DNA from: Xenophilus azovorans DSM 13620
Lineage (GTDB): Bacteria > Pseudomonadota > Gammaproteobacteria > Burkholderiales > Burkholderiaceae_C
Direction of reading: 5' to 3'
DNA length: 64,000 nucleotides
Assembly: GCF_000745855.1 (NCBI RefSeq)
Contig: NZ_KN050766.1
Coordinates: 403,567-467,566 of the forward strand
The notes below the pieces were generated by a model. The model was not told the DNA's origin, did not search any database, and was given only the letters and a program-made list of their open reading frames with translations. Positions within the stretch are counted from its first letter, which is position 1, and each line of letters begins with the position of its first letter. Below, in pieces: positions 1,615 to 20,797 of the stretch. A program made the position numbers and the translations under genes.

Positions 1615-1624
1615 GGCGAAGGCG

Positions 1625-2806
1625 ATGTCCACCCGCGCCTGGACCTGGGTCCACAAGTGGAGCAGCCTGGTCTGCACGCTGTTCATGCTGCTGCTGTGCC
1701 TGACGGGGCTGCCGCTGATCTTCCACGAGGAGATCGAGCACCTGAGCGGCGTGGTCGAGGCGCCGCCCATGTCCGAGGGCACGCCAAACGCCAGCCTCGA
1801 CCGGATCGCGCAGGCGGCGCTGGAGCGGCGCCCCGGCGAGGTGATCCGCTACATGTTCTGGGAGCAGGACGAGCACCCCGACATCACCTACGTGTCGATG
1901 GCCCGCTCGGTCGACGCGCCGCCGGAGGAGAACAACGCCGTCATCGTCGACTCGCGCACCGCCAGGGTGCTGGACGAGCCGAAGACGAACGAGGGCTTCA
2001 TGTACGTCATGCTCAAGCTCCACGTGGACATGTTCGCCGGCCTGCCGGGCATGCTGTTCCTGGGCTTCATGGGGCTGCTGATGGTGGTGGCGATCGTGTC
2101 GGGCGTGGTGCTCTACCACCCCTTCATGCGGCGGCTGAAGTTCGGCGCGCTGCGCACGCAGCGCAGCGCACGCATCAAGTGGCTCGACTGGCACAACCTG
2201 CTGGGCATCGTCACCGTCGTCTGGCTTTGCATCGTCGGCCTGACGGGCACCATCAACACGCTCAACCGCATCATCCTGGGCATCTGGCAGATGGACCAGA
2301 TGGCCGAGATGACGGCGCCGTACAAGGGCCTGCCGCCGGTCACCCGGCCGGCGCATCTGGAGGCGTCCATCCGCGCCGCGCGCGAGGCCGTGCCCGACAT
2401 GGAGGTGCGGCTGGTGGCCTTCCCGGGCACGATGTTCTCCAGTCCGCACCACTACACCTTCTTCCTGAGGGGCGGCACGCCGGTCACCTCGCGCCTGCTC
2501 AAGCCCGCGCTGGTCGATGCCGGCACCGGCCGGCTCACCGATTCGCGCGACATGCCGTGGTACGTGAAGACGCTGTTCCTGTCGCAGCCGCTGCACTTCG
2601 GCGACTACGGCGGCCTGCCGCTGAAACTGCTGTGGGCGCTGCTCGACCTGTTCGCCATCGCCGTGCTGGGCAGCGGGCTGTACCTGTGGCTGCGCAAGCC
2701 CAAGGGCGCCACGGCGCCGGACCCCGCTTCCGACGACCTGGCCGACGCGGGCCCGGTGCCGGCCCACGCGCTGCGCCACGGCGGCGCGAGCGAGGTGACG
2801 TCGTGA
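1625..2806 (+). CDS. PepSY-associated transmembrane protein (siderophore-linked)
   Basis: This is a 393-residue inner-membrane protein of the PepSY-TM family. An N-terminal transmembrane helix (about residues 13-33) is followed by a periplasmic region, helices near residues 140-165 and 190-215, a second soluble PepSY-like region and a final helix near 340-360. Members sit beside TonB receptors and are thought to reduce or process ferric siderophores in the periplasm, but no biochemical role is certain. The gene begins 10 bp after the receptor stop and overlaps the next small gene by 4 bp (GTGA), so the three are probably one transcript. Confidence 0.88.
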   Translation: MSTRAWTWVHKWSSLVCTLFMLLLCLTGLPLIFHEEIEHLSGVVEAPPMSEGTPNASLDRIAQAALERRPGEVIRYMFWEQDEHPDITYVSMARSVDAPPEENNAVIVDSRTARVLDEPKTNEGFMYVMLKLHVDMFAGLPGMLFLGFMGLLMVVAIVSGVVLYHPFMRRLKFGALRTQRSARIKWLDWHNLLGIVTVVWLCIVGLTGTINTLNRIILGIWQMDQMAEMTAPYKGLPPVTRPAHLEASIRAAREAVPDMEVRLVAFPGTMFSSPHHYTFFLRGGTPVTSRLLKPALVDAGTGRLTDSRDMPWYVKTLFLSQPLHFGDYGGLPLKLLWALLDLFAIAVLGSGLYLWLRKPKGATAPDPASDDLADAGPVPAHALRHGGASEVTS

Positions 2807-3063: not shown

Positions 3064-3975
3064 TCAGCGGCCGCGCGCCTGCGCTTCCGCGAGGTCGAGG
3101 AAGGCGGCGATCGGCCGCGAGAACTGCCGCGCGCGCAGGCAGATCACGTGGCTTTGCGTGTAGCTCGGGAAGTCCGAGATGCGCAGCGGATGCAGGTCCG
3201 GGTGCTCCCGGATCTCGGCCTCCGACACGATGCCGATGCCCAGCCCCTCGCGCACGGCCTCGCGCACCGCTTCGCGCGGCACGTCCATGACCACCAGCGG
3301 GCGCACGCCGTGCTCGGCCATCGTCGCCTCGATCGCATCGCGCGTCATCGATCCGGCCTCCCGCATGATCATCGGCTGGCCGTCGAGCTGGCGCAGCTTC
3401 ACCGATTCGAACTGCGCCCATGGGTGATCGCGGTTCACGAAGATCTGGACCTCGTGGGAGCCGAGGCGCACCGAATAGAGCCGGGGGTCGTCGCCGGGGT
3501 TGCCGGTGATCGCGACGTCGGTGACGGCGTCGAGGATCTTGCGCATCACGCCCTGCGAGTTGTCGCTGTCCAGCCGCACCTGGACGAGCGGAAAGGCCTG
3601 CCGGAACTGCGACACCAGCTTCATCACGAAGCTGGGGCCCACCGTGCCGACGCGAAGCTGCCCGGCGACCTCGCCGTTGACCGAGCGCAGCAGCTCGACC
3701 GCCTGCTCCTCGTGCAGGAAGATCTGCTTGGCGATGGCGAACAGCGCCTCGCCGGTGGTGCTCATCTGCAGGCCCCGCGCCGAGCGCAGGAACAGCTCGA
3801 CCCCGTAGCGCTCCTCGAGCGCGCGCACCTGCACGGTCAGCGTCGGCTGGCCGACGTGCAGCAGCTTCGCCGCCTTCGTGAAGCTCATCTCCTGCGCCAC
3901 CGCGTAGAAGGAACGCAGCTGGTTGAAGTTGACGAAGGGCAGGCTGCGTTCGATGTCCCGCTCCACCACTTTCAC
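3064..3975 (-). CDS. LysR-family transcriptional regulator, last gene of the hydroxylase operon
   Basis: This is a 303-residue LysR-type regulator. The N-terminal winged helix-turn-helix covers about residues 14-75, with the typical run NFNQLRSFYAVAQEMSFTKA. An effector-binding domain of the LysR-substrate type fills the rest. The GTG start overlaps the TGA of the upstream hydrolase gene (GTGA), so the regulator is the fifth and last gene of the desaturase-reductase-dehydrogenase-hydrolase operon rather than being divergent as most LysR genes are. That predicts autoregulation and control of this operon, perhaps through the shared promoter boxes near 8258 and 15298. The effector is unknown. 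Similar proteins include CysB/CbbR-like and phosphonate-utilisation-type regulators. Confidence 0.9.
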   Translation of the reverse strand: MKVVERDIERSLPFVNFNQLRSFYAVAQEMSFTKAAKLLHVGQPTLTVQVRALEERYGVELFLRSARGLQMSTTGEALFAIAKQIFLHEEQAVELLRSVNGEVAGQLRVGTVGPSFVMKLVSQFRQAFPLVQVRLDSDNSQGVMRKILDAVTDVAITGNPGDDPRLYSVRLGSHEVQIFVNRDHPWAQFESVKLRQLDGQPMIMREAGSMTRDAIEATMAEHGVRPLVVMDVPREAVREAVREGLGIGIVSEAEIREHPDLHPLRISDFPSYTQSHVICLRARQFSRPIAAFLDLAEAQARGR

Positions 3976-4814
3976 GACGCCTCCACCGTGGCGCGGGTCC
4001 GGGCCAGCAGCGCGCGCATGACGGGCCCGTCCGGGCCGGCCATCTGGCGCAGGATCGAGTAGTGGTCCGCCCCGGGCACGACGAGCATCTGCGCCGCGTC
4101 GGCGCCGCCCTCTCCCGCCGACCAGTGCGCCACGTAGCGGCGCGCCTGGTCGTGGAACGCGGGCGTCTCCTCGGCGCCGACGGCGGCGAGGAGCCAGCCG
4201 GCGCCCGCGGGCCGCGCCAGGGGGCTCAGCCGGCCGGCGAGTGCATCGTCGATGCCCACGTCCGCGCCGATCGAGGTGCGCGCCAGCGGCGCGAGGTCGA
4301 ACAGGCCGCTCAGCGCCAGGCAGCCGGCGATCCGATCGCGCCAGTCCGGGTCCGAGGCGAGCATCGCCGCCAGATGGCCGCCGGCCGAATGGCCCGCGAC
4401 GACGGTGCCGCGCCAGGCCGGCAGCAGCGTGCTGCCCGGCCCGTGCAGCCAGCCCATCGCCGCACGCAGGCTCTGCACGATGTCCGGCATCGGACATTGC
4501 GGCGCCAGCGGATAGCCGATCACCGCCACCGAGAAGCCGTGCTGCCGGAGCGCGCCGACGACGAAGGCGTAGTCGTCCTTGCGCTGGCTGCGCCAGTAGC
4601 CGCCGTGCACGAAGACCAGCAGCGGGCACCCGTCGCGCCCCGGGAAGAGGTCGATGCATTCGCGCGGGTGCGGGCCGTAGGGCTGGTCCAGCCATGCCGG
4701 CGGCTGCGCGCGGGCGGCCGCGCTGGCCGCGGCGATCTCGGCATAGACCGCCGTGCGCGACGGGTACCGATCCGAAAACACATACTGCCGCTCGATCGGC
4801 GGATCGATCTCCAT
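3972..4814 (-). CDS. Alpha/beta-hydrolase, kynurenine formamidase/esterase-like
   Basis: This is a 280-residue alpha/beta-hydrolase of the hormone-sensitive-lipase/arylformamidase type. HGGYW (residues 70-74) forms the oxyanion hole, the nucleophile is Ser143 in GHSAGG, and the C-terminal GADHYSIL run supplies the probable catalytic His. There is no signal peptide, so it should be cytoplasmic. ATG preceded by AAGGAG is a good start. It lies 38 bp after the alcohol dehydrogenase gene and overlaps the LysR start by 4 bp. In this operon it may hydrolyse an ester or amide intermediate. A true kynurenine formamidase role is unlikely because no other kynurenine gene is near. Confidence 0.85.
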   Translation of the reverse strand: MEIDPPIERQYVFSDRYPSRTAVYAEIAAASAAARAQPPAWLDQPYGPHPRECIDLFPGRDGCPLLVFVHGGYWRSQRKDDYAFVVGALRQHGFSVAVIGYPLAPQCPMPDIVQSLRAAMGWLHGPGSTLLPAWRGTVVAGHSAGGHLAAMLASDPDWRDRIAGCLALSGLFDLAPLARTSIGADVGIDDALAGRLSPLARPAGAGWLLAAVGAEETPAFHDQARRYVAHWSAGEGGADAAQMLVVPGADHYSILRQMAGPDGPVMRALLARTRATVEAS

Positions 4815-4852
4815 CGTGTCGTCTCCTTGCTTGTCTTGTCGTGGCCCCGCAG

Positions 4853-5962
4853 CTATTCGAAGTGGATGACGCTGCGCAGCGCGCTGCCGTCCTGCATGCG
4901 GCGGAAGCCCTCGTCGATGTCGGCCAGGTCGAGCCGGTGCGTGATCAACGGGTCGAGTTCGAGTTTGCCATCCATGTAGAGGTCGACAAAGCGGCCCAGG
5001 CCGCTGCGCCCCTTCACGCCGCCGAAGTAACTGCCCTTCAAGGTCCGGCCGTAGCGCACCGCGACCGGCGGCACCGCCATCTCCGCCCCCGCGGGCTCCA
5101 CGCCGAGCAGCACGCAGGTGCCCCAGCCCACCTGGCACACGTCCAGCGCCTGGCGCATCACGCCGGTGTGGCCGGTGCACTCGAAGGCCACGTCCACGCC
5201 GCCCCCGCCGAGCGCGCGGACCTGCTCGGTCACGCGCCCCGGCTCGCGCGAGGCGTCGATGAAGTCGGTCAGCCCGAAGCGCCGCGCCAGAAGCTCCTTC
5301 GAGGCATGCAGGTCCACGCCGATGATGCGGCCGGCGCCGGCGATGCGGGCGCCCTGGACGATGTTCACGCCGATGCCGCCGAGCCCGAAGATCACCACCG
5401 TGTCGCCCTCGCGCACGTCGTCGAGCGCCGCGCCGACGCCGGTGGTCACGCCGCAGCCGAGCAGGCAGACGCGGTCGAGCGGCGCGTCCTGGCGGATCTT
5501 CGCCAGCGCGATCTCGGGCACCACGGTGTAGCGCGAGAAGGTCGAGGTGCCCATGAAGTGGTGCGCCACCTCGCCGCGCCAGCGGAAGCGCGAGGTGCCG
5601 TCGGGCATCACGCCGCGGTCGCGCGTGGGCTTGATCGACCAGCAGAGGTTGGTGCGCCGGCTCAGGCACATGCGGCAGGCGCCGCACTCCGGCCCGTAGA
5701 GCGGGATCACGTGGTCGCCCACCGCGAGGCCGCGCACCTCGGGGCCGACCTCGACCACGCGGCCCGCGCCCTCGTGGCCGAGGATCGCCGGGTAGACGCA
5801 GCTCGCGTTGCTGCCCTCGATCGCGGTCAGGTCGGTGTGGCACAGGCCGCTCGCGGCGATCTCCACCAGCACCTCGCCGGGGCGCGGCGGCGCGACCTCG
5901 ACCGTGTCGACGACGAAGGGGTTGCCCGGCGCCGTGAGGATGGCGGCTCGGCTCGCGATCAC
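4853..5962 (-). CDS. Zinc-dependent alcohol dehydrogenase (class III/aryl-alcohol type)
   Basis: This is a 369-residue medium-chain dehydrogenase. Catalytic zinc ligands are Cys41 and the His63-Glu64 pair. Four structural-zinc cysteines (Cys93, 96, 99, 107) lie in the GPECGACRMCLSRRTNLC segment. The GLGGIGVNIV turn binds NAD. This layout matches the S-hydroxymethylglutathione/benzyl-alcohol dehydrogenase group. The GTG start overlaps the reductase stop by 4 bp. Downstream of a membrane hydroxylase, the simplest role is oxidation of the primary alcohol that enzyme makes, as XylB follows XylM. A formaldehyde-detoxifying role, for example if the hydroxylase demethylates its substrate, is the main alternative. 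Confidence 0.92.
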   Translation of the reverse strand: MIASRAAILTAPGNPFVVDTVEVAPPRPGEVLVEIAASGLCHTDLTAIEGSNASCVYPAILGHEGAGRVVEVGPEVRGLAVGDHVIPLYGPECGACRMCLSRRTNLCWSIKPTRDRGVMPDGTSRFRWRGEVAHHFMGTSTFSRYTVVPEIALAKIRQDAPLDRVCLLGCGVTTGVGAALDDVREGDTVVIFGLGGIGVNIVQGARIAGAGRIIGVDLHASKELLARRFGLTDFIDASREPGRVTEQVRALGGGGVDVAFECTGHTGVMRQALDVCQVGWGTCVLLGVEPAGAEMAVPPVAVRYGRTLKGSYFGGVKGRSGLGRFVDLYMDGKLELDPLITHRLDLADIDEGFRRMQDGSALRSVIHFE

Positions 5963-7173
5963 GTGGCCACCGCCTCGGACAGGGCACGCGCACGCGGCAC
6001 GGGCAGCGCGCCGTCCTCCACCGGCTCGCCGCGCTCGATCAGCTTCATCGCGCGGCGCAGCTCGCGGGCGCAGTCGATGCCGATCGCGCCGCGCAGGCGC
6101 GCCGATCCGTCCAGGTAGCAGGCCAGGCGCGGGCCGTCGTCCGGCGTGTCCAGGACGACGCAGCGGTGGCCGTCGTCCGGCCGGCCGGCGATCTGGATGT
6201 TGCGGCCGTACTGGTCCGTCCAGAACCAGGGCACCGGCGGGCGCGGCGGCGGCAGGCCCAGGATCGAGGCCGCCGCCGCCTGGGCGCCGTCCTCGGCGTT
6301 GCGCCAGGATTCGAGGCGGTGGTCGAGCCCCGCGCCGGCGTCCACGTGCCGGGCCGCGTCGCCGACGGCATGGATCGCCGGGTCGCTGCTGCGGCCCGCG
6401 GCATCGACGACGATGCCGTCGCGCACCGCCAGCCCCGCGGCGGCGGCCAGTTCGTCGTTGGCGCATGCGCCGATGCCGACGACGATCGTGTCGACGTCGA
6501 TGCAGCCGCCATCCGCGAGGCGGATGCGGCCGGGAGCGATGCGCTCGACCGCGTGGCCGAGCAGCACCTGCACGCCCCGCGCGCGGTGCAGCTCGATCTG
6601 CTCGAACGCGAAGGCCGCGGGCAGCAGCCGCGCCAGCGGCCGCGGCGCCGCCTCGACCAGCGTCACCTCGGCGCCGAGCGTGCGCGCCGTGGCGGCGAGT
6701 TCCAGCCCGATGAACCCCGCGCCGACGATGCCGACGCGCTGCCCCGGCGACAGGCGCGGCGCGAGCCGCAGGGCATCGTCGACGGTGCGCAGGTACAGCA
6801 GTTCGGCGCCCGGCTCGACCGGCCCCGGGAACACGCGCGGCCGCGCGCCGGTCGCCAGGACGAGGTGGTCGTAGTCCAGCGTGCTGCCGTCGTCCAGCCG
6901 CACCCGGCGCGCCCCGCGCTCGATCGCCACGGCTCGCGCCGAACGGCGCAGTTCGACGCCGAGCTCGCTCCAGCCCGCCTCCTGCATCAGCAGCAGCGAT
7001 GCGGGCTCGGCGCGGCCGAGCAGCACTTCCTTCGACAGCGGCGGCCGCTCGTAGGGCGGCAGCGCCTCGTCGCCCACGAGCATGACCGGACCGGCATGGC
7101 CGAGCCGCCGCAGCGCCTGCGCGGTGCGCCCGCCCGCCTGGCCGGCGCCGACGATGAGCACGCGCCCGTTCAC
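5959..7173 (-). CDS. NAD(P)H:ferredoxin/rubredoxin reductase (FAD)
   Basis: This is a 404-residue flavoprotein of the BphA4/rubredoxin-reductase family. It has an FAD-binding GAGQAGG at residues 8-14, the ATGAR motif, a second dinucleotide fold GAGFIGLE for NAD(P)H, the HAVGDAA flavin motif, and a C-terminal interface domain. Its likely partner is the Rieske ferredoxin encoded about 7 kb away, since no ferredoxin gene lies in its own operon. It would pass electrons from NADH to that ferredoxin and on to the membrane di-iron enzyme. The GTG start overlaps the desaturase stop (GTGA), which supports stoichiometric synthesis of the two. Confidence 0.92.
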   Translation of the reverse strand: MNGRVLIVGAGQAGGRTAQALRRLGHAGPVMLVGDEALPPYERPPLSKEVLLGRAEPASLLLMQEAGWSELGVELRRSARAVAIERGARRVRLDDGSTLDYDHLVLATGARPRVFPGPVEPGAELLYLRTVDDALRLAPRLSPGQRVGIVGAGFIGLELAATARTLGAEVTLVEAAPRPLARLLPAAFAFEQIELHRARGVQVLLGHAVERIAPGRIRLADGGCIDVDTIVVGIGACANDELAAAAGLAVRDGIVVDAAGRSSDPAIHAVGDAARHVDAGAGLDHRLESWRNAEDGAQAAAASILGLPPPRPPVPWFWTDQYGRNIQIAGRPDDGHRCVVLDTPDDGPRLACYLDGSARLRGAIGIDCARELRRAMKLIERGEPVEDGALPVPRARALSEAVAT

Positions 7174-8147
7174 GGCCGCACGGCCTCGCGTTGCCCGCGC
7201 CGGCCGCGCAGCACCTGGCCGACGATCTCGCGGTGCACCTGCCAATAGCTCGTCGAAAGGCAGCCCAGGTGCGGCCTCAGCTCGCGGTGCAGGCGGCCGA
7301 GCGCATGGAAGGGCACCGACGACGCGACGTGATGCTCCGCGTGGTAGGGCATGTTCCAGTACAGCGTCCTGAACACGGGGTTGGCCAGCGTGGTGCGCGT
7401 GTTGGCGAGCAGGTTCGGGCTTTCCTCGGCACCCGTGTGCTCGGCCATGCGGATGGCGCGCAGCACCGGCTCGCCGATGAAGCGCGGGAAGAGCCAGTAG
7501 AGCACCGCCGCCCACGAATGCAGCGCGATCGAAGCGGCCGCGACCAGCAGGTACACCAGCACCGCACCCCGGATCTCCCAGCTCACGCGGCGCACGTCGC
7601 TGGCCGGGATGAACGACAGCTCCAGCGCGCTGAAGCGCCCCGTCGTCCCGCGCCAGAGGGTGCCCAGCATCTTCGGCCAGAACGAGGCGCCGAGGATCAT
7701 CGCGAAGTAGGCGCGCATCGAGTCCGGGAAGGGCACGATGTCCGGGTCCAGCGCGTCGTGCTGGGTGTAGGTGTGGTGGGCCGTGTGGCGGTACTTGAAG
7801 TACAGGAAGGGCCGCATGCTGATCAGGCCGGCCAGCATGCCGACGGCGGTGTTCAGCCAGCGCGTGCGGAAGGCCGTGCCGTGCGAGCACTCGTGCAGCG
7901 GCGCGAACAGCAGCACGATCACCGTGCCGTGCACGAAGGACGCCAGCAGCCAGGTCCACCAGACGTCCTTCGCCAGGTACACGAGCGTGCCGGTGGCCAG
8001 CAGCGCCAGCGCGTGGATCGCCAGGTGCGCGAGGCCCGGGCCGTTGCTGCGCTCCCGCAGCGCCTTGAGCGTCTGGCGGGGAATCTTCTCCGGCCCGGTC
8101 AGGGACCATTCCTGTGTCCCCATGCGGCCGAACGTGGTGTCGCTCAT
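7170..8147 (-). CDS. Membrane di-iron fatty-acid desaturase/hydroxylase
   Basis: This is a 325-residue integral membrane protein of the fatty acid desaturase superfamily. Three histidine boxes hold the di-iron centre: His85/His89 (HECSH), His121/124/125 (HTAHH) and His269/272/273 (HAEHH). Four or so hydrophobic helices lie around residues 45-80, 100-115 and 190-220. Start is the ATG with GAGGAAG upstream. The family includes lipid desaturases, XylM/AlkB-type methyl hydroxylases and carotenoid hydroxylases. A dedicated ferredoxin reductase and alcohol dehydrogenase in the same operon favour hydroxylation of a small molecule over lipid desaturation. The substrate cannot be read from the sequence. 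It is the first gene of its operon, behind the promoter near 8228. Confidence 0.9.
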   Translation of the reverse strand: MSDTTFGRMGTQEWSLTGPEKIPRQTLKALRERSNGPGLAHLAIHALALLATGTLVYLAKDVWWTWLLASFVHGTVIVLLFAPLHECSHGTAFRTRWLNTAVGMLAGLISMRPFLYFKYRHTAHHTYTQHDALDPDIVPFPDSMRAYFAMILGASFWPKMLGTLWRGTTGRFSALELSFIPASDVRRVSWEIRGAVLVYLLVAAASIALHSWAAVLYWLFPRFIGEPVLRAIRMAEHTGAEESPNLLANTRTTLANPVFRTLYWNMPYHAEHHVASSVPFHALGRLHRELRPHLGCLSTSYWQVHREIVGQVLRGRRGQREAVRP

Positions 8148-8227
8148 CGAATGTCTTCCTCAAAGTGGTGGACTCGTCTTCCGGGGCGCCATGGCCCTGC
8201 GCGGCGCCTCGCCGGCAGACTGGATCG

Positions 8228-8282
8228 ATGCTAGGAGGCGCGCCCGCCGGCGGCCAATTCATTGTGTGAACGTGCCCATTGA
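8228..8282 (-). promoter_or_regulatory. Hydroxylase-operon promoter with activator box (copy 1)
   Basis: On the minus strand a TAGCAT -10-like hexamer (8228-8233) is preceded by a poor -35. Upstream lies a box with two CAATG repeats 17 bp apart, from the TCAATG whose plus-strand complement ends at 8282 to the ACAATGAA near 8258. The block 8221-8286 aligns without gaps to 15261-15326 upstream of the Rieske ferredoxin gene, with about 43 of 66 positions identical by my count. A weak -35 with a conserved upstream box is what an activator-dependent promoter looks like. The regulator is inferred, not shown. Confidence 0.55.
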
Positions 8283-8313
8283 TCGGCGGCGCCTCGCCGG
8301 CCGCCCTGCCCTG

Positions 8314-9819
8314 TCAGGCCGCCACGGCGCAGCGGGCGATGGCGTCGGCGTCGAAGGCCGCGCGCTCGAACTCGCCCGTGATCCGGCCGCGGCTCATGAC
8401 CGCGATGCGGTCGCACAGCCCCATCAGCTCGGGCAGCTCGCTGGAGACCACCAGGATCGCCTTGCCTTCGGCCGAGAGCCCGTGCAGCGCCTCCCAGATG
8501 TGCTGCTTGCCGCCGACGTCGACGCCGCGCGTCGGCTCCTCGACGATCCAGACGTCGGCGCCGCGCGCCATCCACTTGCCGAGCACCACCTTCTGCTGGT
8601 TGCCGCCCGACAGGTTGACCACGCCGCGGTGCGGCGCCGGCGCCTTGATCCGCAACTGCTCGATCAGCGCCCCGCCCCGGCGCTGCTGCCGCTGCCGGGA
8701 CACCAGGCCCAGGCGCGAGAGCGGCGCCAGCGTGCCGAGCGTGAGGTTGTCGTACACCGACATGCCGAGCACCAGCCCCTCGGCCTTGCGGTCGGCCGGC
8801 AGGTAGGCGATGCCGGCCTCGATGGCATCGCCCACGCCGGCGAAGCGCATCGGCCGCCCGCGCACCCGCAGCTCGCCCTCGTCGGGCGCGTGCAGCCCGA
8901 ACAGCGTGCGGATCACGCTCTCGCGCTCGCAGCCCATCAGACCCGCGATGCCGACGATCTCGCCGGCATGCACGGCCAGGTCGATGCCGCGGTAGCGGCC
9001 GCGCAGCCCGAGGCCCACGGCCTCGATGAGCTTCGCGCCGCGCACCGGCGCCTGGCGCGGCGGGAAGCGCTCGCCCAGCTCGCGCCCCACCATCGCGCGG
9101 ATCAGCTTCTGCTCGTTCGCCTCGCCGGCGCCGAAGCGCGCGGCGACCCGGCCGTCGCGCAGCACCGTGATGCGGTCGGCGATGCGAAGCACCTCCTCCA
9201 GCCGGTGCGAGACGTAGACGATGCCGAGGCCTTCGGCGCGCAGCCGCTCCACCGTCTGCAGCAGCAGCGCGACGTGCTCGTCGGTCAGCGAGGCGGTGGG
9301 CTCGTCGAGCACCAGCACCCGCGGCTGGCTGGCCAGCGCCTTGCCGATCTCGACGAGCTGCCGTTCGCTGAGCGACAGCGTCGCGGCGCGCTGCTGCGGC
9401 GAGATCCGCGCGCCGAGGCGCTGCAGCAGCTCCGCGCTGCGCCGGTGCATCAGCGCGCCGTCGACGCGGCCGAGCGCGTTGCGCGGCTCCTGGCCGAGGA
9501 ACAGGTTCTCGGCCACCGTCATGTTCGGGCACAGGGCCAACTCCTGGTGCACCAGCGCGAGGCCGCTGCGGCGCGCCTGCAGCGGGCGGGCCAGCCGGGT
9601 CGGCCGCCCGAGCAGGAAGAGCTCGCCCTCGTCGGGCTGCTGCAGGCCGTTGACGATGGCCAGCAGCGTCGACTTGCCGGCGCCGTTCTCGCCCACCAGC
9701 GCATGCACCTCGCCGGGCCGCACGTCGAAGCTCACGTCCTGCAGCGCGGCCACGGCGCCGAAGCGCTTGCCGATGCCGCGCACCTCCAGCAGCGGGGTCG
9801 CCGCCCCGATGGCCGTCAT
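8314..9819 (-). CDS. Sugar ABC importer ATPase, double-domain RbsA/XylG type
   Basis: This is a 501-residue ATP-binding protein with two fused ABC domains, as in RbsA, XylG and MglA. The first has Walker A GENGAGKST (about residues 46-54), the signature variant LSLSERQ, and Walker B VLVLDEPTA. The second has the degenerate P-loop GLMGCERES usual in this family, the signature LSGGNQQKV and IVEEPTRGVD. ATG lies 2 bp after the kinase stop. It would energise import through the two permeases encoded upstream. It is the last gene of the transport operon, 166 bp before the desaturase gene. An alternative upstream start would overlap the kinase gene and is unlikely. Confidence 0.94.
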   Translation of the reverse strand: MTAIGAATPLLEVRGIGKRFGAVAALQDVSFDVRPGEVHALVGENGAGKSTLLAIVNGLQQPDEGELFLLGRPTRLARPLQARRSGLALVHQELALCPNMTVAENLFLGQEPRNALGRVDGALMHRRSAELLQRLGARISPQQRAATLSLSERQLVEIGKALASQPRVLVLDEPTASLTDEHVALLLQTVERLRAEGLGIVYVSHRLEEVLRIADRITVLRDGRVAARFGAGEANEQKLIRAMVGRELGERFPPRQAPVRGAKLIEAVGLGLRGRYRGIDLAVHAGEIVGIAGLMGCERESVIRTLFGLHAPDEGELRVRGRPMRFAGVGDAIEAGIAYLPADRKAEGLVLGMSVYDNLTLGTLAPLSRLGLVSRQRQQRRGGALIEQLRIKAPAPHRGVVNLSGGNQQKVVLGKWMARGADVWIVEEPTRGVDVGGKQHIWEALHGLSAEGKAILVVSSELPELMGLCDRIAVMSRGRITGEFERAAFDADAIARCAVAA

Positions 9820-9821
9820 CG

Positions 9822-11381
9822 TCAGGCGCCCTGGCCCAGGCGGTAGCGGTCGAGCAGCGCGTGCTGCCGGTCCATCGCGCCCTGCAGGTCCTGGAACACC
9901 GCCTGCCACAGCGCGAAGAACTCGGCGTAGCGCTGGTGCATCGCTGCGTCGGGCTCGATGGTCTGCTTGATGGTCGCGATCTGCGGCACCGGCTCGCAGG
10001 GGTCACGGTAGATGCCCGCGCCCACGCCGGCGAGGATCGCGTCGCCCAGCGGCGCCGCCTCGTTGACGTCGGGGATGTCCAGCGGCAGGTTCACCACGTT
10101 GGCGGTGATCTGGTTCCAGAAGCGGCTCTTGGTCGGGCCGCCGTTGAGGATCAGCCGGTCGAGCTTCACGCCCGCCGACTGGGCGATGCGGACGTTCGAA
10201 TAGAGGTCGAAGGCCACGCCCTCGACCAGCGCGCGGATGAAGTGCGCCCGCGTGGTGCCGGCGCGCACGCCGAAGAAGGTGCCGCAGGCGTTCGAGTTCC
10301 AGTTGGGCGCCAGCGAATTGCCGAGGTACGGCAGGTACAGCAGGCCGTCGGCGTTGGGCGCGACCCGCTCCGCCTCGGCGGTGAACAGGTCGAACACGTT
10401 CTGGCCGACGCGTTCGGCCACCTGCCACTCGACGGAGCCGAAGTTGTCGCGGAACCACTTGAGCGAGGCGCCGGTGAAGGCCATCGGGGCATCGAACATC
10501 GTGAGGCCGGGCAGCACGTGCGGCCACTTCAGGATGCGGAACTCGTCCACGTCCTGCTCGGTCGGGATCATGATCCCGAGGTTGGAGCCGGTGCCCATCG
10601 AATAGTAGGCCTGCCCCGCCTGGGTGACGCCGGCGCCCAGCGCCGCCGAGCTGATGTCGGTGCCGCCCGCAACCACCGGGATGCCGACCGGCAGCCCCGT
10701 CTCCTCCGAGGCCAGGCGCGTGATCTCGCCGACCACCTCGTGCGACTGGTAGATGCGCGGGTACTTGTCGATGGGCACGCCGATGGCGTCGGCCACGGTC
10801 TCGTTCCAGCGGTACTTCTTGTACTCGTAGGGATAGAACAGGCCGGCGTCGCCGGTGTTGATCGAGAAGGTCCCCGTCATGCGGAAGGTGCAGTACCCCG
10901 CGGGCGAGAGGAACTTGTGCGTCGCGTTGAAGACGTGCGGCTGGTGGTTCTTGATCCACAGCGCCTTCGGCTCGATGAACCAGGGCGCGACGCGGTTGCC
11001 GTTGATGCGGTTGATCGTGTCTTCCCCCACGCGCTCGCGGATCTCGGTGCACTCGCGCTCGGAACGCGCGTCCATCCAGATCATCGCGTCGCGCAGCGGC
11101 CGGCCCGCCTGATCCACCGGCAGCGTCACGCCCACCAGGCCCGAGATCGCCACGCCGCCGATCGCATCGGCGAACTGGCCCTTGTCCAGGCACTGGCGGA
11201 TCGACGCGACCACCGCCTTCCAGTAGTTGTTCGGGTCCTGCTCGGCCCAGCCCGGCTGCGGGTGGAAGAGCGGGTGCTCGCGCGAACCGGTGGCGACCAC
11301 CTTGTTCGTCTGCGTGTCCAGCACCACCGCCTTCACGTTGGTGGTGCCGATGTCGATGCCGAGCATCAGGGTGCGGGCCAT
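9822..11381 (-). CDS. FGGY-family carbohydrate kinase (xylulokinase-like)
   Basis: This is a 519-residue sugar or polyol kinase of the FGGY family. The phosphate-1 motif DIGTTNVKAVVLD is at residues 9-21, the probable catalytic base is Asp242 in AGGTDISSAALGAG, and the C-terminal adenosine motif is LNGGPTKSRFWNQI. Length matches xylulokinase and ribulokinase relatives. AAGGAG precedes the ATG. The substrate is unknown; relatives phosphorylate xylulose, erythritol, fuculose or autoinducer-2. It lies 31 bp after the second permease gene and 2 bp before the ATPase gene, so import is probably followed directly by phosphorylation. No isomerase or aldolase gene for a standard pentose route is in the window. 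Confidence 0.93.
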   Translation of the reverse strand: MARTLMLGIDIGTTNVKAVVLDTQTNKVVATGSREHPLFHPQPGWAEQDPNNYWKAVVASIRQCLDKGQFADAIGGVAISGLVGVTLPVDQAGRPLRDAMIWMDARSERECTEIRERVGEDTINRINGNRVAPWFIEPKALWIKNHQPHVFNATHKFLSPAGYCTFRMTGTFSINTGDAGLFYPYEYKKYRWNETVADAIGVPIDKYPRIYQSHEVVGEITRLASEETGLPVGIPVVAGGTDISSAALGAGVTQAGQAYYSMGTGSNLGIMIPTEQDVDEFRILKWPHVLPGLTMFDAPMAFTGASLKWFRDNFGSVEWQVAERVGQNVFDLFTAEAERVAPNADGLLYLPYLGNSLAPNWNSNACGTFFGVRAGTTRAHFIRALVEGVAFDLYSNVRIAQSAGVKLDRLILNGGPTKSRFWNQITANVVNLPLDIPDVNEAAPLGDAILAGVGAGIYRDPCEPVPQIATIKQTIEPDAAMHQRYAEFFALWQAVFQDLQGAMDRQHALLDRYRLGQGA

Positions 11382-11412
11382 GTCTTCGTCTCCTTGGATG
11401 GGGGTTTTCTCT

Positions 11413-12447
11413 TCATGCGCCGCGGCGCTGCATCGCCGAGGCCGCCGCGACGGCGGCGATCAGCACGACGCCGATGATCAGGTCCTGGTACCACGCGCTC
11501 ACATCGTGCAGCGTCAGCAGGTTCAGGCCGGCCGCGAAGACGAACGCGGCGCACAGCGTCCGCCAGGGCGACCCGTGCCCGCCCATCAGGCTGGTGCCGC
11601 CGAGCACCGCGATGGCGATCGCGCTGAGCTCGTAGCCGGTGGCCATGGGCGCATCGACCGAGTTGGCGCGCGAGGTCAGGATCAGCCCGGCCAGCGCGGC
11701 GCACAGCCCGCTCGCGACGTAGACGGCCACCAGCCACCGGCCCACGCGCACGCCCGCGAAGCGCGCCGTCTTCTCGTCGCCGCCGATGGCGTAGATCCGC
11801 TTGCCGGCGAGATGGGCATGCAGCAGCCAGGCGAACACCACGAACACCGCGAGCAGCACGAGCGCCGCCACCGGCACCGGTCCGACCCGGGCCTCGCCGA
11901 GCCAGCGGTAGGCGTCGCTGCGCAGGTAGTACGGGCGGCCGTTGGAGAGCACGTAGCTCAGGCCGCGCAGCGCGCTGAGCGTCACCAGCGTCATGATGAA
12001 CGGCGCGACGCGCCCGCAGGCCACACCCAGCCCGTTGAACAGCCCCACCAGCGCGCCGACGGCCAGCGTCAGCGCCGCCACCGGCGCCACGGGGCCGACG
12101 TAGGTGTTGCCGCGGCCCATCATGCGCACGTCGAGCATGCCGCCGGCCACGACCATGATCTCCACCGCGGCGATCACGCTGAAGACCATCGTCGCGCCGA
12201 CCGACAGGTCGATGCGGCCCGTCAGCATGACGAGGTTCATGCCCAGCGCGAGCAGGCCGAACACCGCCACCTGCCGCAGCAGGTTCGCCATGTTGTCGGC
12301 GCTCAGGAAGTACGGCGAGCTGAGCGCGCCGGCAGCCAGCAACGCGACGAGCAGCCACAGCATCGGCTGGCGCAGCACCGCGGCGGCCGCGGAGCCCGCA
12401 TGCGCGTCGCTGCCGGATTCGGGCCGGGTCAACGGCAGTGCGCTCAT
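11413..12447 (-). CDS. Sugar ABC importer permease 2 (RbsC-like)
   Basis: This 344-residue permease of the ribose/xylose/AraH family (BPD_transp_2) has about nine to ten hydrophobic segments. Family-typical runs include ALGMNLVMLTGRIDLSVGA and YAIGGDEKTARFAGV (EAA-like coupling loop). Its ATG overlaps the stop of the first permease by 4 bp (ATGA). Together with that gene it would make a heterodimeric channel, unlike the homodimer usual for RbsC. It has longer periplasmic loops than its partner. Transported compound unknown. Confidence 0.92.
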   Translation of the reverse strand: MSALPLTRPESGSDAHAGSAAAAVLRQPMLWLLVALLAAGALSSPYFLSADNMANLLRQVAVFGLLALGMNLVMLTGRIDLSVGATMVFSVIAAVEIMVVAGGMLDVRMMGRGNTYVGPVAPVAALTLAVGALVGLFNGLGVACGRVAPFIMTLVTLSALRGLSYVLSNGRPYYLRSDAYRWLGEARVGPVPVAALVLLAVFVVFAWLLHAHLAGKRIYAIGGDEKTARFAGVRVGRWLVAVYVASGLCAALAGLILTSRANSVDAPMATGYELSAIAIAVLGGTSLMGGHGSPWRTLCAAFVFAAGLNLLTLHDVSAWYQDLIIGVVLIAAVAAASAMQRRGA

Positions 12448-13445
12448 GCTTCCCGCTCCTTGCGCTGCAGGCTGTCGGGCAGCACCACGAGCAGGATCAC
12501 GGCGGCGGTGACGATCTGCTGGACGTAGCTGCTCACGCCGGCGATGTTCAGCGCGTTGTTCACCACGCCGATGATCAGCGCCGCGAGCAGGGTCCCCTCG
12601 ATGGTGCCGCGCCCGCCGGCGAGCGACACGCCGCCGAGCGTCGCCACCGCGATCACGCTGAGTTCGATGCCGGTGAAGCCGGCCGGCCCGATGTAGGCCA
12701 GGCGCGCCGTCTCCAGCAGCCCGGCCAGCGCGGCCGCCACGCCGCTGGCGACGAACACCAGCAGCCGCACGCGGTCGACACGGATGCCCGACAGCCCCGC
12801 CGCCGTGGCGTTGCCGCCGACCGCGTACAGCGCGCGGCCGAACCGCGCGTGGCGGGTCAGCACGATCGCCGCCGCGGCGGCGATCGAGAACACCCACACC
12901 GGCACCGGGATGCCCAGCACCGCGCCGCGGCCGAACCACAGGTAGCCCGCGCTGCCCTCCGGGTAGATCGCCTGCCCGCCGGACAGGATGTTGGCCAGCG
13001 CGCGCAGCACGCCGAGCATGCCCAGGGTGACGATCAGCGAAGGCACGCGCAGCCGGGTCACGAGCAGCCCGTTGACCAGGCCGCACGCCACGCCGGTCGC
13101 CAGCACGCCGGCGACGACCAGCGCCACCGAGCCGCTCGGCAGCAGCATGCCGCCGACCACGCCCGAGATCACCGCGACGCCGCCGATCGACAGGTCCAGC
13201 TCGCCGGCCAGCAGGACCAGCGCCATGCCGAGCGCCATCACGCCCACCGTCGAGACGGCGAGCAGCACGGTGCGGGCGTTCTCGGCCGTCGCGAACGCCG
13301 GCTGGAACACCGAGGCGGCCGCGACGAGCAGGACCAGCAGCGCGACGCGGCCCGCGACGGCATCGAGGCTCAGGCGCTGCCGGGGCGATGCCCCGGCCTG
13401 CGCCGCGGCGGCGGGCAGGCGGTCGGCCGGTACGGTGGTTTCCAT
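12444..13445 (-). CDS. Sugar ABC importer permease 1 (RbsC-like)
   Basis: This 333-residue permease has the same fold as its downstream partner, with MALGMALVLLAGELDLSIGG near residue 80 and the coupling loop YAVGGNATAAGLSGI. About nine transmembrane helices are predicted from hydrophobicity. ATG is preceded by a purine-rich GGAAGAAG. It lies 41 bp after the binding-protein gene and overlaps the second permease by 4 bp. A pair of distinct permeases is seen in autoinducer-2 (LsrC/LsrD) and some polyol importers. Confidence 0.92.
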   Translation of the reverse strand: METTVPADRLPAAAAQAGASPRQRLSLDAVAGRVALLVLLVAAASVFQPAFATAENARTVLLAVSTVGVMALGMALVLLAGELDLSIGGVAVISGVVGGMLLPSGSVALVVAGVLATGVACGLVNGLLVTRLRVPSLIVTLGMLGVLRALANILSGGQAIYPEGSAGYLWFGRGAVLGIPVPVWVFSIAAAAAIVLTRHARFGRALYAVGGNATAAGLSGIRVDRVRLLVFVASGVAAALAGLLETARLAYIGPAGFTGIELSVIAVATLGGVSLAGGRGTIEGTLLAALIIGVVNNALNIAGVSSYVQQIVTAAVILLVVLPDSLQRKEREA

Positions 13446-13486
13446 CCTGGCTTCTTCCGGTGTGGCTGGGTGGAACACGGACCCGC

Positions 13487-14797
13487 TTACTGTCCGGCCG
13501 CGGGCTTGTCCGGGCCGAAGGCGTAGGGCCACTCGTCCGGCGTCAGCGTCTGCACGCCCTCGATCGTCATCTTCGTCTTCGTAATCATCGGCAGGTTGGG
13601 CGTGAGGATCAGCTTCGGCGGCGCCTCCTTCAGCAGGCCGGCCTTGAAGCCGATGTGGCGGATGACCGCGCGCACGCCGAGGTCGCCGATCAGCGGCGTG
13701 TAGGGCGCCACCATGTCGATGTTGCCGGCCTTGACCTCGCGCATGATCTCCTTGGAATCGTCGTCCGCGACGATCACGATCTTCTTGCCGCCGGGCGCGC
13801 TGTTCAGGCGCTTGGCCTCGCGGATGGCGTCGAGCGCGCCCATCGCCTCCTCGCCGCCCGCCGTGTAGACCGCGCTGACCTCCTTGAAGGCCTGCATCGC
13901 GTCGGCCGTGGTCTTGAAGGTCAGCGTGCGGTCGCTGTTGACGTGGTAGGAGCCCAGGATCTTGTAGCCGGGGCTGCCGCCGATCACCTGCAGGAAGCCG
14001 CCGGCGCGGATCGAGTCGGCGGTGCTGCCCAGGTCCTTGCGCGTCAGCACCAGGTTGCCCTGCCCCTTCAGCACCTCGTTCAGGTACATGCCCTGCTGCA
14101 CGCCGTTGGCGTAGAAGTTGCCCGTGACCTCGGAGCTGACCTTGTCGGAGGAGGTGCGGCGGTCGACGCTCACCACCGGGATGCCGGCCGCGATCGCGCG
14201 GTCCACCGGCGGCCCCATCGGCGCCTCGCGCTGCGGCCACAGGACGATGCCGTCGTACTTCTTGGTGACCCAGGTGTCGATGACCTGCGCCATCTTGTTG
14301 TCGTCGTACTGGGCGTCGATGACGTCGATCTGCACGTTGGGGTGGCGCGCGGCCTCCCACGCGGCGGTGTCGGCGAGACTGACCAGCCACGAGTGGTTGA
14401 AGCCGTGGAAGACGAAGCCGATGCGGTAGGTCTTCTTCGGATCGAGCACCGGGCCGTCCGGCAGCGGCAGGTAGTCGGTGAACGGTGCCTTGATCGGCAG
14501 CTTGCTGTAGGGCCCGACGAAGGAAGCGCCCATGCCGGGCTTCCACACGAAGCCGTCGGCGAGCTTGCCCACCGGGTAGGCCTCGAGCTCCTGCGCGAAG
14601 CCGTCCTTGGCGAAGATGGCCTTGACGGCGGGATTGGTCATCGACTTCTCGTCGACCTTCGCGTACTTGGCGATCACCGTGTTGAGCTGCTCGTGCACGG
14701 AAGTCTGCGCGGCTGCGCCGGCCGCCACGCCGGCCAGGGCGGCGGCGGACAACGCATGGACGAGGCTGGCCATGCGCACCATGGGCTTGAGGTTCAT
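13487..14797 (-). CDS. Sugar ABC importer periplasmic binding protein
   Basis: This 436-residue secreted protein of the Peripla_BP_4 (ribose/TorT-like) family has a signal peptide at about residues 1-31 ending in AGAAAQ. The mature part opens with an unusual 90-residue segment before the binding-protein core (RIGFVFHGFNHSWLVSLA near residue 130). Core motifs include DAQYDDNKMAQVIDTW and PVVSVDRRT. The GGAGAC before this ATG supports it over an ATG 27 bp upstream that lacks a ribosome site. At 436 residues it is clearly longer than ribose-binding proteins (about 300), so the ligand may be larger or non-standard. First gene of the transport operon, after two strong hairpins. Confidence 0.9.
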   Translation of the reverse strand: MNLKPMVRMASLVHALSAAALAGVAAGAAAQTSVHEQLNTVIAKYAKVDEKSMTNPAVKAIFAKDGFAQELEAYPVGKLADGFVWKPGMGASFVGPYSKLPIKAPFTDYLPLPDGPVLDPKKTYRIGFVFHGFNHSWLVSLADTAAWEAARHPNVQIDVIDAQYDDNKMAQVIDTWVTKKYDGIVLWPQREAPMGPPVDRAIAAGIPVVSVDRRTSSDKVSSEVTGNFYANGVQQGMYLNEVLKGQGNLVLTRKDLGSTADSIRAGGFLQVIGGSPGYKILGSYHVNSDRTLTFKTTADAMQAFKEVSAVYTAGGEEAMGALDAIREAKRLNSAPGGKKIVIVADDDSKEIMREVKAGNIDMVAPYTPLIGDLGVRAVIRHIGFKAGLLKEAPPKLILTPNLPMITKTKMTIEGVQTLTPDEWPYAFGPDKPAAGQ

Positions 14798-14827
14798 TCT
14801 TGTCTCCGGTTGATGGGCTTGCATTCA

Positions 14828-14883
14828 CGCCGCCGCGAAGATGCGGCGGCGCACGCTCGGGAAAGGCCGGGCCGCGCCCGGCC
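14828..14883 (-). terminator. Two tandem GC-rich hairpins between ferredoxin and binding-protein genes
   Basis: Two perfect inverted repeats lie in this 107-bp gap. One has 9-bp arms at 14828-14836 and 14843-14851; the other has 8-bp arms at 14865-14872 and 14876-14883. On the minus strand the second hairpin is followed by TTTCCC, a short weak T run. They could terminate or attenuate the ferredoxin transcript, or protect an mRNA end. Read-through into the transporter genes is possible. Confidence 0.5.
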
Positions 14884-14904
14884 GCAGGCTGGGGCCTGTT
14901 AACG

Positions 14905-15234
14905 CTATGCGTCGAGCGCGATCAGCACCTGTCCGTCCTCGATGCGCAACGGATAGGTCTTCAGGTCCTCCGTCACGGGCGGCGACATGGCGCGGCCGGT
15001 GGGGATGTGGAACAGGCCCTGGTGCAGCGGGCACTCGACCGTGTCGCCGTCGACGTAGCCGTCCGACAGGTGGGCGTGGGCGTGCGTGCAGATGTCGGCC
15101 GTCGCGTACAGCCGGCCGTCGAGGTTGAAGAGCGCGATGCACCGGTCCTCCACCTCGCAGCGACGCACGTCAGACGGCTCCACGTCACCTGTGCGCGCGA
15201 TCGCGATCCAGCGTTGGGTCTCCGGCTTCGACAT
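14905..15234 (-). CDS. Rieske-type [2Fe-2S] ferredoxin
   Basis: This 109-residue soluble Rieske ferredoxin is of the BphF/NirD-like type. Cluster ligands are Cys49 and His51 in the CTHAHAHL segment, and Cys68 and His71 in CPLHQGLF. Length is typical of dioxygenase and hydroxylase electron carriers. GGAGA precedes the ATG. No Rieske oxygenase alpha subunit is nearby. The matching promoter of the di-iron hydroxylase operon (copy 1 near 8228) suggests it carries electrons from the flavoprotein reductase to the membrane hydroxylase. That would be unusual, because such enzymes normally use rubredoxin or plant-type ferredoxin. Confidence 0.93.
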   Translation of the reverse strand: MSKPETQRWIAIARTGDVEPSDVRRCEVEDRCIALFNLDGRLYATADICTHAHAHLSDGYVDGDTVECPLHQGLFHIPTGRAMSPPVTEDLKTYPLRIEDGQVLIALDA

Positions 15235-15267
15235 GTGTCTCCATGCATTGATTGATGCGATGGACCG

Positions 15268-15322
15268 ATCGTAGGAAGCCGCATCGGCGGGGTCGATTTC
15301 ATTGTTTCAATGCCCGCATTGA
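15268..15322 (-). promoter_or_regulatory. Rieske ferredoxin promoter with activator box (copy 2)
   Basis: On the minus strand TACGAT (15268-15273) is the -10 candidate. The upstream box holds CAATG repeats 17 bp apart, plus an extra inverted half-site that makes a perfect TCAATGC-CC-GCATTGA repeat on the plus strand (15307-15322). Spacing to the -10 is identical to copy 1 near 8228. The predicted start of transcription is about 25-30 bp before the ATG. Confidence 0.55.
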
Positions 15323-15391
15323 CACGGCCGCGAAAGATCGAGGGTTTCTACCCATGCTGGTGCCCGGCCGCCCGCTGCCGTGGGGCAGCCA

Positions 15392-15425: not shown

Positions 15426-16112
15426 ATGGCGACGACGACGGACACTCCCAACCGCGCAACGCGCGTCAAGCAAAGAGGACCGGGCCGGCCGGGGGGAACG
15501 AGCGCCGTCCGCGACGAGATCATGGACGCCGCCGAGGCGCAGTTCGCGGAGCTGGGCTATGCCGGCACCACGCTGCGCGAGGTCGCCGCGGCCACCAACG
15601 TGACGCAGGCGCTGATCAGCTACTACTTCGGCTCGAAGTACGGGCTGTTCGAGGAAACCTTCCTGCGCCGCGGCCAGGTCATCTCGCGTCAGCGGACCGA
15701 GCTGCTGGAGGCGCTGCTGGCCCGCAAGGGCAAGCCCACGGTGCGCGAGATCGTGCACGCCTTCCTCTCGCCCACGCTGGCCCTGCGCTCCACGCCGCAG
15801 GGCCGGGCCTTCCTGCGCCTGCAGGCCCGGCTGCACACCGAGCCGCCGGAGATCTCGTACAAGCTGCGCACGCACGCCTACGGCTCGTCGACGCAGCGCT
15901 ACGTGGATGCCTTCCGGCTGGCGCTGCCGCAACTGGGCGAGCTGGACGCCTACTGGCGCGTGACGCTGATGGTCGGCACCTACCTCTACGCCTTCTCGGA
16001 CACGCATCGCATGGAGGAGATGACGCCCAAGGGGCTGTACGACCCCGAGGACACCGAGGCGCTGATCGACCAGGTGAGCCGCTTCGTGGTGGGCGGCTTC
16101 CAGGCGCGCTGA
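15426..16112 (+). CDS. TetR/AcrR-family transcriptional regulator
   Basis: This 228-residue regulator has an N-terminal helix-turn-helix at about residues 32-75, including YAGTTLREVAAATNVTQALISYYFGSKYGLFEE, where the recognition helix ends in the typical YYFGSK. The variable C-terminal domain binds the effector. It is divergent from the Rieske ferredoxin gene, and its promoter region abuts the ferredoxin promoter, so it may control ferredoxin and possibly the distant hydroxylase operon. An in-frame upstream codon exists but would cover the promoter. The ligand is unknown. Confidence 0.9.
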   Translation: MATTTDTPNRATRVKQRGPGRPGGTSAVRDEIMDAAEAQFAELGYAGTTLREVAAATNVTQALISYYFGSKYGLFEETFLRRGQVISRQRTELLEALLARKGKPTVREIVHAFLSPTLALRSTPQGRAFLRLQARLHTEPPEISYKLRTHAYGSSTQRYVDAFRLALPQLGELDAYWRVTLMVGTYLYAFSDTHRMEEMTPKGLYDPEDTEALIDQVSRFVVGGFQAR

Positions 16113-17836: not shown

Positions 17837-17861
17837 GGCAAAAATCTCCAGCGTGACGGGT

Positions 17862-19471: not shown

Positions 19472-19487
19472 GTCCATGCTCCCGGGC

Positions 19488-20723: not shown

Positions 20724-20785
20724 GTCCTTGCTACTCCTTGATTCGGGGGCCGGCAGTTCGCTCGGCCTGTTTGTTAAATAACTGT

Positions 20786-20797
20786 TCAATTAATTGA
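20786..20797. promoter_or_regulatory. Palindromic operator candidate upstream of nicC
   Basis: TCAATTAATTGA is a perfect 12-bp palindrome 63 bp before the nicC start. On the minus strand it falls between a weak -35 and a TATTTA -10 candidate, a natural repressor position. The same TCAATTAATT core occurs twice before the liv operon (25509-25523 and 25576-25590), suggesting that one regulator links import and catabolism. Confidence 0.55.

Follow-up and report, generated by a model that had tools for sequence, protein, structure and literature searches.

Membrane di-iron hydroxylases of the XylM/XylA and AlkB/AlkG/AlkT systems are supplied with electrons by a plant-type ferredoxin or a rubredoxin. 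A different arrangement is found in rhizopine catabolism, where MocD is a desaturase-family demethylase and MocE a Rieske protein. Here we describe an eleven-gene cluster of Xenophilus azovorans DSM 13620 in which a Rieske [2Fe-2S] ferredoxin, a membrane di-iron enzyme of the fatty-acid-desaturase superfamily and a BphA4-type reductase are accompanied by genes for an importer, a carbohydrate kinase, an alcohol dehydrogenase (ADH), an alpha/beta hydrolase and a LysR-type regulator. The cluster lies in a 64,000-nucleotide stretch of contig NZ_KN050766.1 (NCBI RefSeq assembly GCF_000745855.1, positions 403,567 to 467,566 of the forward strand); this whole stretch is called the window, and positions are counted from its first letter.

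The MocDEF system serves the breakdown of the rhizopine L-3-O-methyl-scyllo-inosamine in Sinorhizobium meliloti and Rhizobium leguminosarum, and resembles the window in clustering a desaturase-family enzyme with a Rieske ferredoxin and a BphA4-type reductase. The functions given above for MocD and MocE rest in part on an annotated Rhizobium locus (L044) and are not stated in the passages cited next. Passages of three papers describe mocDEF (PMC10107442, PMC5132102, PMC3538637); two papers by Bahar (1998 and 2000), cited in PMC10107442 and PMC5132102, have the words 'ferredoxin oxygenase complex' in their titles, and PMC10107442 reports rhizopine-inducible mocB and mocD promoters in separate units, mocD standing apart from mocBA. 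In L044 the annotated order is LacI regulator, triosephosphate isomerase (TIM) barrel protein, desaturase-family protein, MocE-family ferredoxin and flavin adenine dinucleotide (FAD) oxidoreductase (HcaD-like); the ferredoxin scores 179.4 bits against TIGR02377 and carries the Rieske motif CTH..CPKH. From the match of this gene order to mocDEF loci described in PMC3538637, we infer that L044 is mocDEF. Most likely, it was already known more than two decades ago that a Rieske ferredoxin can feed an enzyme of the desaturase family, and an earlier sequence-only reading of this DNA went too far in regarding such an arrangement as distinct from known systems, MocDEF being of the same kind.

The window nevertheless departs from MocDEF in several respects. 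Its desaturase is 33% identical to that of L044, and its ferredoxin, at 96.0 bits against a TIGR02377 cut-off of 136.15, would work like MocE yet is not a member of the MocE family by that model. The carrier gene sits in a transporter operon, a LysR regulator replaces MocR or LacI, and genes for an FGGY kinase, an ADH and a hydrolase are added. The rhizopine pathway proper was rejected as a candidate on the score of the periplasmic binding protein against the rhizopine-binding model NF052284 (51.7 bits; cut-off 420). Fourteen Hyphomicrobiales genomes encode a protein above that cut-off; ten of these became loci, and the nine rhizopine-binding-protein regions examined contained no match to the desaturase, Rieske protein or reductase of the window or of L044, and thus no authentic moc locus, L044 being used instead. 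With the XylM/XylA and AlkB/AlkG/AlkT systems the window shares histidine boxes and the membrane di-iron fold (template modelling (TM) score of 0.52 to AlkB), whereas their carriers are not Rieske proteins and their substrates are hydrocarbons; a word search of the accessible text of a review of AlkB electron-transfer proteins did not find 'Rieske'. The AndAb/AndAa and HcaC/HcaD pairs belong to the same ferredoxin and reductase families, but the window has no Rieske oxygenase subunit to go with them, its ferredoxin falls below the cut-off of each of the AndAb, HcaC, MocE and NirD models, and the best NCBIfam model of its reductase, HcaD, is matched at 343 bits against a cut-off of 450.

The Rieske and desaturase genes of the window are parts of a single 12-kb cluster, in which every gene from 15234 down to 3064 is on the minus strand and which comprises two operons with two promoters. 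Starts, stops and open frames were verified for all cluster genes, with starts refined by sequence reading. Operon 1 begins with the Rieske gene (14905..15234; PF00355, 67.4 bits; motif CTH..CPLH; CTHAHAHLSDGYVDGDTVECPLH) and continues with genes for the binding protein, two permeases, the FGGY kinase and the ATP-binding cassette (ABC) ATPase. Operon 2 runs from the desaturase gene (7170..8147) through the reductase (5959..7173), ADH (4853..5962) and hydrolase (3972..4814) genes to the LysR gene (3064..3975), with GTGA overlaps at the desaturase/reductase, reductase/ADH and hydrolase/LysR junctions. The sequence-only reading had proposed that a three-His-box enzyme, a BphA4-type reductase, an ADH and a hydrolase form one operon lacking an electron carrier gene; Pfam matches, the histidine boxes and the overlaps bear out the first point, and no carrier gene occurs among the five genes of operon 2. 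It had also placed a lone Rieske ferredoxin, with no Rieske oxygenase, at a second locus. The ferredoxin is indeed the sole Rieske-domain match in the window, and that search revealed no Rieske oxygenase large subunit beside it or elsewhere in the window; the gene is not lone, however, as it heads the transporter and kinase operon that fills the intervening 7 kb, and one cluster with two promoters is a better description than a system split over two loci.

The two operons carry closely similar promoters, upstream of the Rieske gene (operator CATTGAAACAATGAAAT, 15296..15312, minus strand, a perfect CATTG-N3-CAATG dyad) and of the desaturase gene (operator CGTTCACACAATGAATT, 8256..8272, minus strand). 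In each, 24 bases separate CAATGAA from TANNNT, after which comes a TCG.TCC-like stretch, and when both strands were searched the full pattern was present at only these two places in the window, as expected from the matching promoters noted earlier. In the organism's own genome four places fit the operator with at most one mismatch, two of them being these promoters (CGTTCACACAATGAATT with one mismatch), while the reversed control pattern gave none. Of the 19 stretches that precede Rieske or desaturase genes in relatives, near-duplicate pairs included, 18 score at least 14 of 17 on CATTNNNACAATGAATT, three of whose 17 positions are free; the sole low-scoring region, before the Rieske gene of locus L018, sits inside an operon. 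Control segments of the same loci reached 14 in 9 of 1118 cases. A matrix built from 16 sites of other genomes, leaving out L012 and the failing L018 site, gave the two promoters the highest scores of all window positions, 28.8 for the Rieske gene and 22.9 for the desaturase gene, ahead of 18.8 for the third-ranking position. We derived the operator pattern by eye from these very promoters, which makes the test partly circular; the control limits this and does not remove it. The sequence evidence makes it very probable that the two operons are regulated together, and the LysR protein at the end of operon 2 (LysR_substrate, 139 bits; TIGR03339, 287 bits against a cut-off of 341) is probably the regulator, a putative binder of both operators.

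Conservation of the cluster was assessed by scanning 84,980 species genomes, one per species, for close relatives, which yielded 15 loci encoding a desaturase relative: nine alphaproteobacterial (62–66% identity), one in Nioella (47%) and five actinobacterial (45–52%). Eight of them (L009–L015 and L017) have all eleven genes, among them those for both permeases, in the same order. The Rieske and kinase genes are each found in 14 of the 15, the fifteenth (L016) being a 4.1-kb contig, and the LysR gene in 13. All genes except those for the ADH and hydrolase are retained in L018 (20.9 kb), arranged as two divergent units, and all except the LysR gene in L023, within 13 kb. The four loci L019–L022 have a desaturase–kinase–Rieske–LysR unit, as seen in three Streptomyces loci (one a 7.2-kb contig); in L019, genes for a reductase, an ADH and an alpha/beta hydrolase are also nearby. 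More distant desaturases adjoin a Rieske gene in L043, L090 and L091 (42–43%), L092 (41%), L044 (33%) and L051 (30%), and in L049, from a genome of the window's order, a 45% identical desaturase stands next to a Rieske protein and a 30% identical FGGY kinase.

The cluster is rare. At E ≤ 1e-140 the kinase had matches in three genomes out of 398 sampled from the phylum, namely the organism's own and those of L011 and L018, and at E ≤ 1e-100 in 1 of 60 relatives, its own genome alone. Desaturase matches at E ≤ 0.001 were present in 21 of these 60 relatives, those below 1e-60 being confined to its own genome and to that of L049 and L050; among 397 Hyphomicrobiales, four reached E ≤ 1e-60, one being 65% identical and three 42–43%.

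Phylogenetic distances argue in the same direction as synteny. Those of the Rieske proteins and desaturases correlate at r = 0.757 over 20 loci, with none of 2000 permutations as high, a value inflated by the shared ancestry of the genomes, and those of the Rieske proteins and reductases at 0.746 over 13 loci (0 of 2000); the near-duplicates L012, L015 and L042 were left out. In a wider tree of 37 Rieske sequences, the window protein joins seven alphaproteobacterial cluster ferredoxins. Its identity to other cluster ferredoxins is 41–58%, and to other desaturase-linked ferredoxins 35–46%. The case from Rieske identity alone is weak, and the argument for coupling is carried by synteny and the operator. 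Given the conserved synteny, the correlated trees and the shared conserved operator, there is a strong case that the Rieske protein is the physiological electron carrier of the membrane di-iron enzyme, and in this the earlier pairing of ferredoxin and desaturase is upheld.

The presumed acceptor has the features of the desaturase superfamily, with a PF00487 score of 130.8 bits against a cut-off of 29.7 and histidine boxes HECSH (85–89), HTAHH (121–125) and HAEHH (269–273); His 85, 89, 121, 124, 125, 237, 269, 272 and 273 are invariant across 15 aligned sequences. A sequence search of the PDB gave no match at E ≤ 10. The structure model (predicted local distance difference test score, pLDDT, of 85.3) resembles alkane monooxygenase, with an AlkB-like fold (FtAlkB 8sbb, TM 0.52, Foldseek E 6.4e-3; 8f6t, TM 0.50), and chains of the Ycf2- and Orf2971-FtsHi complexes came ahead of AlkB in the fold search (TM 0.66). 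The reductase contains Pyr_redox_2 and Reductase_C domains and is of the BphA4/HcaD type. Family membership and co-conservation suggest that electrons would flow from NAD(P)H through the reductase and the Rieske ferredoxin to the di-iron enzyme.

The remaining genes of operon 1 bear on the kind of compound that is handled. The binding protein (13487..14797, minus strand, start chosen by reading) is of the CUT2 type, its PF13407 match of 143.7 bits covering residues 135–393 of the longer open reading frame 13487–14824. An N-terminal extension of about 100 residues, many of them invariant, is conserved in ten aligned proteins, the window's included, and in an alignment with 2ioy the positions are kept that we take to be the sugar contacts of ribose-binding protein. 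Permease 1 (12444..13445; BPD_transp_2, 122.5 bits) and permease 2 (11413..12447; 130.9 bits), the start of the latter overlapping the end of the former as ATGA, have homologues at the same place in relatives of 43–59% and 46–56% identity, respectively. The ATP-binding protein (8314..9819, start by reading; PF00005) is of the AraG/RbsA type, scoring 499 bits against the AraG model (cut-off 689). The kinase (9822..11381; PF00370/PF02782), which shows 61–72% identity across the cluster, belongs to the FGGY superfamily and misses the xylulokinase model TIGR01312 (341.7 bits against 380.25); all of these genes are on the minus strand. Because of the kinase and the CUT2 importer, the substrate is quite likely to be sugar- or polyol-like. 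The flanking genes of relatives gave no hint of the substrate, 7 of 10 proteins having no Pfam match at E ≤ 1e-5; the other three were a dehydratase next to L014, an anthranilate-synthase-type protein next to L021 and the L019 hydrolase.

In Ruegeria (L043:2561-24861), the desaturase–Rieske pair of 42–43% identity is surrounded by genes for sarcosine oxidase, a ring-hydroxylating oxygenase and members of the trimethylamine-methyltransferase family, which hints at N-methyl substrates. In the L049 region (L049:8404-16926), homology search recognized the 45% identical desaturase, the Rieske protein and the 30% identical FGGY kinase, while a short-chain dehydrogenase/reductase, a glycerol-dehydrogenase-like protein, a FAD-linked oxidase and a protein of the enolase superfamily were named by reading.

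The ADH of operon 2, a class-III-like zinc enzyme, aligns over its full length with human ADH5 and retains C44, T46, H66 and C173, but differs from class III enzymes (FrmA, ADH5) at the positions D55, E57 and R114, which in class III ADH bind glutathione, having N55, S57, W111 and K114 where ADH5 has D55, E57, Q111 and R114. Its TIGR02818 score of 447.6 bits is below the cut-off of 543.95. Thirteen other cluster ADHs from 12 genomes, L057 repeating L011, all have N55, S, T or K at 57, and W111; K114 is found in twelve and R114 in L023. The hydrolase carries the HGGXW motif typical of kynurenine formamidases, which reads HGGYW in the window copy and either HGGYW or HGGFW in the 12 others examined, L057 again being a repeat. 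Like those enzymes it also has a serine-hydrolase elbow, GHSAGG, seen in 11 of the 12 others and replaced by GHSAGA in L010. It matches BD-FAE at 54 bits, a score obtained from 4062–4850, with the last 30 residues missing; the PDB search used the whole protein.

On balance we favor, by a modest degree, the explanation that these genes are induced by, and serve to break down, a small compound that resembles a sugar or polyol and probably carries an O- or N-methyl group. The binding protein, the two permeases and the ATPase would import the compound, as their families suggest, and the di-iron enzyme, supplied through the reductase and Rieske ferredoxin, would hydroxylate it, most likely at the methyl group. 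The class-III-like ADH may then oxidize the hydroxymethyl group to a formyl group while it is still attached to the substrate. Formate would be released by the HGGXW hydrolase, and the FGGY kinase would phosphorylate the freed polyol, with the LysR protein probably switching on both operons through the shared CATTG-N3-CAATG-type site. Oxidative demethylation through a formyl intermediate is put forward tentatively; such a methyl-to-formyl-to-formate route would account for the joint occurrence of an HGGXW hydrolase and an ADH derived from class III. The fuller proposal, that the methyl group of a polyol or amino-polyol leaves as formate, with neither free formaldehyde nor glutathione involved, and that the kinase captures the product, is more doubtful still.

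Several observations weigh against this explanation. Hemiacetals and carbinolamines usually break down spontaneously, and because they fall apart unaided, a directly oxidized hydroxymethyl intermediate is chemically demanding. In the two Streptomyces loci with full flanks (L021 and L022), no reductase, ADH or hydrolase gene is near the desaturase–kinase–Rieske–LysR unit, so that the ADH and hydrolase need not act on the product of the hydroxylase. The formamidase interpretation of the hydrolase is weak, since better relatives are found elsewhere: its PDB matches are led, far ahead, by 9n8r 'Lipase 1' (E 7.2e-39), followed by 2pbl (7.4e-21) and the kynurenine formamidase 4e11 (2.6e-16), and its best NCBIfam model, matched under cut-off, is of the hormone-sensitive-lipase family. 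The distances of reductases and desaturases correlate less well (0.542 for 13 loci, a value reached in 4 of 2000 permutations), and the reductase is a presumed electron donor of the ferredoxin. The node that joins the window ferredoxin to the other cluster ferredoxins has an ultrafast-bootstrap support of only 72, same-genus ferredoxins with no desaturase nearby are 50–53% identical to the window's and hence as similar as many cluster ones, and a second desaturase copy (L050, 46%; genome G053, the same as for L049) has no Rieske gene nearby. Finally, no cluster gene marks the identity of the substrate.

Some of these points suit an alternative that we consider nearly as likely as the formyl route, and likewise tentative, in which the electron chain is unchanged and no demethylation takes place. 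The di-iron enzyme would hydroxylate carbon, as its XylM/AlkB-type relatives do, at a methyl or methylene group of a deoxy- or methyl-branched polyol; the ADH would oxidize the resulting primary alcohol, the hydrolase open a lactone or ester, and the kinase trap the product. An ordinary alcohol is a possible substrate for an ADH that has lost the residues for S-hydroxymethylglutathione, lipases and esterases are the best structural and NCBIfam relatives of the hydrolase, and the absence of both enzymes from the vicinity of the Streptomyces units is counted in its favor. On the other side, the HGGXW motif and the derivation of the ADH from an enzyme that oxidizes an S-hydroxymethyl to an S-formyl group fit a one-carbon unit better, although neither is proof.

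A further alternative is demethylation that yields free formaldehyde, which the ADH and hydrolase would detoxify on the spot as a glutathione-dependent pair of the FrmA/FrmB kind. This might be expected from the TIGR02818 match and the full-length alignment with ADH5, but is improbable. D55 and E57 are replaced in all cluster ADHs compared and R114 in all but that of L023, and glutathione-dependent formaldehyde detoxification by the ADH was rejected on these replacements; its score is under the family cut-off, and the genome encodes a separate FrmA-like protein of 722.9 bits in which D55, E57 and R114 are kept. The matches of the hydrolase are not of the FrmB or esterase D kind. The ADH is, moreover, conserved in the actinobacterial loci L019 and L023, and a cluster ADH of 71% identity occurs in a metagenome-assembled genome of the Pseudonocardiaceae, to our knowledge a lineage without glutathione.

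It is still less probable that the ferredoxin lies here by chance and serves a Rieske oxygenase elsewhere in the genome, some other carrier feeding the di-iron enzyme. The genome is rich in Rieske proteins (46 PF00355 matches at E ≤ 0.001), and ferredoxins of up to 53% identity occur with no desaturase in the stretch examined. Such proteins are common in relatives: 23 of the 60 have a match at E ≤ 1e-18, against one for the kinase, and 13 of the 397 Hyphomicrobiales have one at E ≤ 1e-24, where ten loci were taken, two were dropped as repeats of loci already in the set, and three of the eight examined contain a desaturase homologue and five do not. The expectation that the ferredoxin of relatives would keep company with the desaturase consequently fails for the general family and holds for the window's own lineage within it, at the grouping support given above. 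Chance placement is opposed by the synteny that 14 of the 15 loci show in Alphaproteobacteria and Actinobacteria alike, by the shared operator and by the correlated trees. A role of the membrane enzyme as a genuine desaturase of fatty acids or lipids, which the name of its Pfam family and weak NCBIfam matches to DesA and DesB might suggest, is very improbable and was rejected, as those scores (36.7 and 44.8 bits) are far below cut-offs of 500 and the surrounding genes are for import and phosphorylation, not lipid metabolism.

The cluster is bordered by genes of other kinds. A TetR-type regulator (15426-16112, plus strand, start by reading) is divergent from the Rieske gene; as a query it found no match in the 15 loci with a desaturase relative, and for this reason may belong to a neighboring pathway. 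Beyond it, on the minus strand (16141-20789), are genes for an isochorismatase-like hydrolase, a NicX-like protein, an alpha/beta hydrolase, an Asp/Glu-racemase-type protein (EutA model, 100.9 bits) and a FAD monooxygenase (314 bits), a set with no NCBIfam model over cut-off that resembles the nicotinate degradation genes nicF-X-D-E-C. At the opposite end (43-2806, plus strand) lie the end of a TonB-dependent receptor gene and a gene for a PepSY-type membrane protein, both named by reading only.

Compared with MocDEF, what is new here is the FGGY kinase, the CUT2 importer, the ADH without the glutathione-binding residues of class III and the HGGXW hydrolase. A description of this module was not recognized in the open-access literature searched, subscription papers lying mostly outside that search, and the cluster is apparently an undescribed conserved catabolic module. 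Its distribution suggests that a Rieske ferredoxin and a desaturase-family hydroxylase constitute a recurring redox unit and not a rhizobial oddity, one that is kept with one kinase and one regulator family in Alphaproteobacteria, in this non-alphaproteobacterial member of the Pseudomonadota and in Actinobacteria. The defined 11-gene module and its regulatory site provide a handle for finding the substrate of the kinase and importer and, if the demethylation reading is true, the cluster would process methyl groups by a new route on which no free formaldehyde arises.

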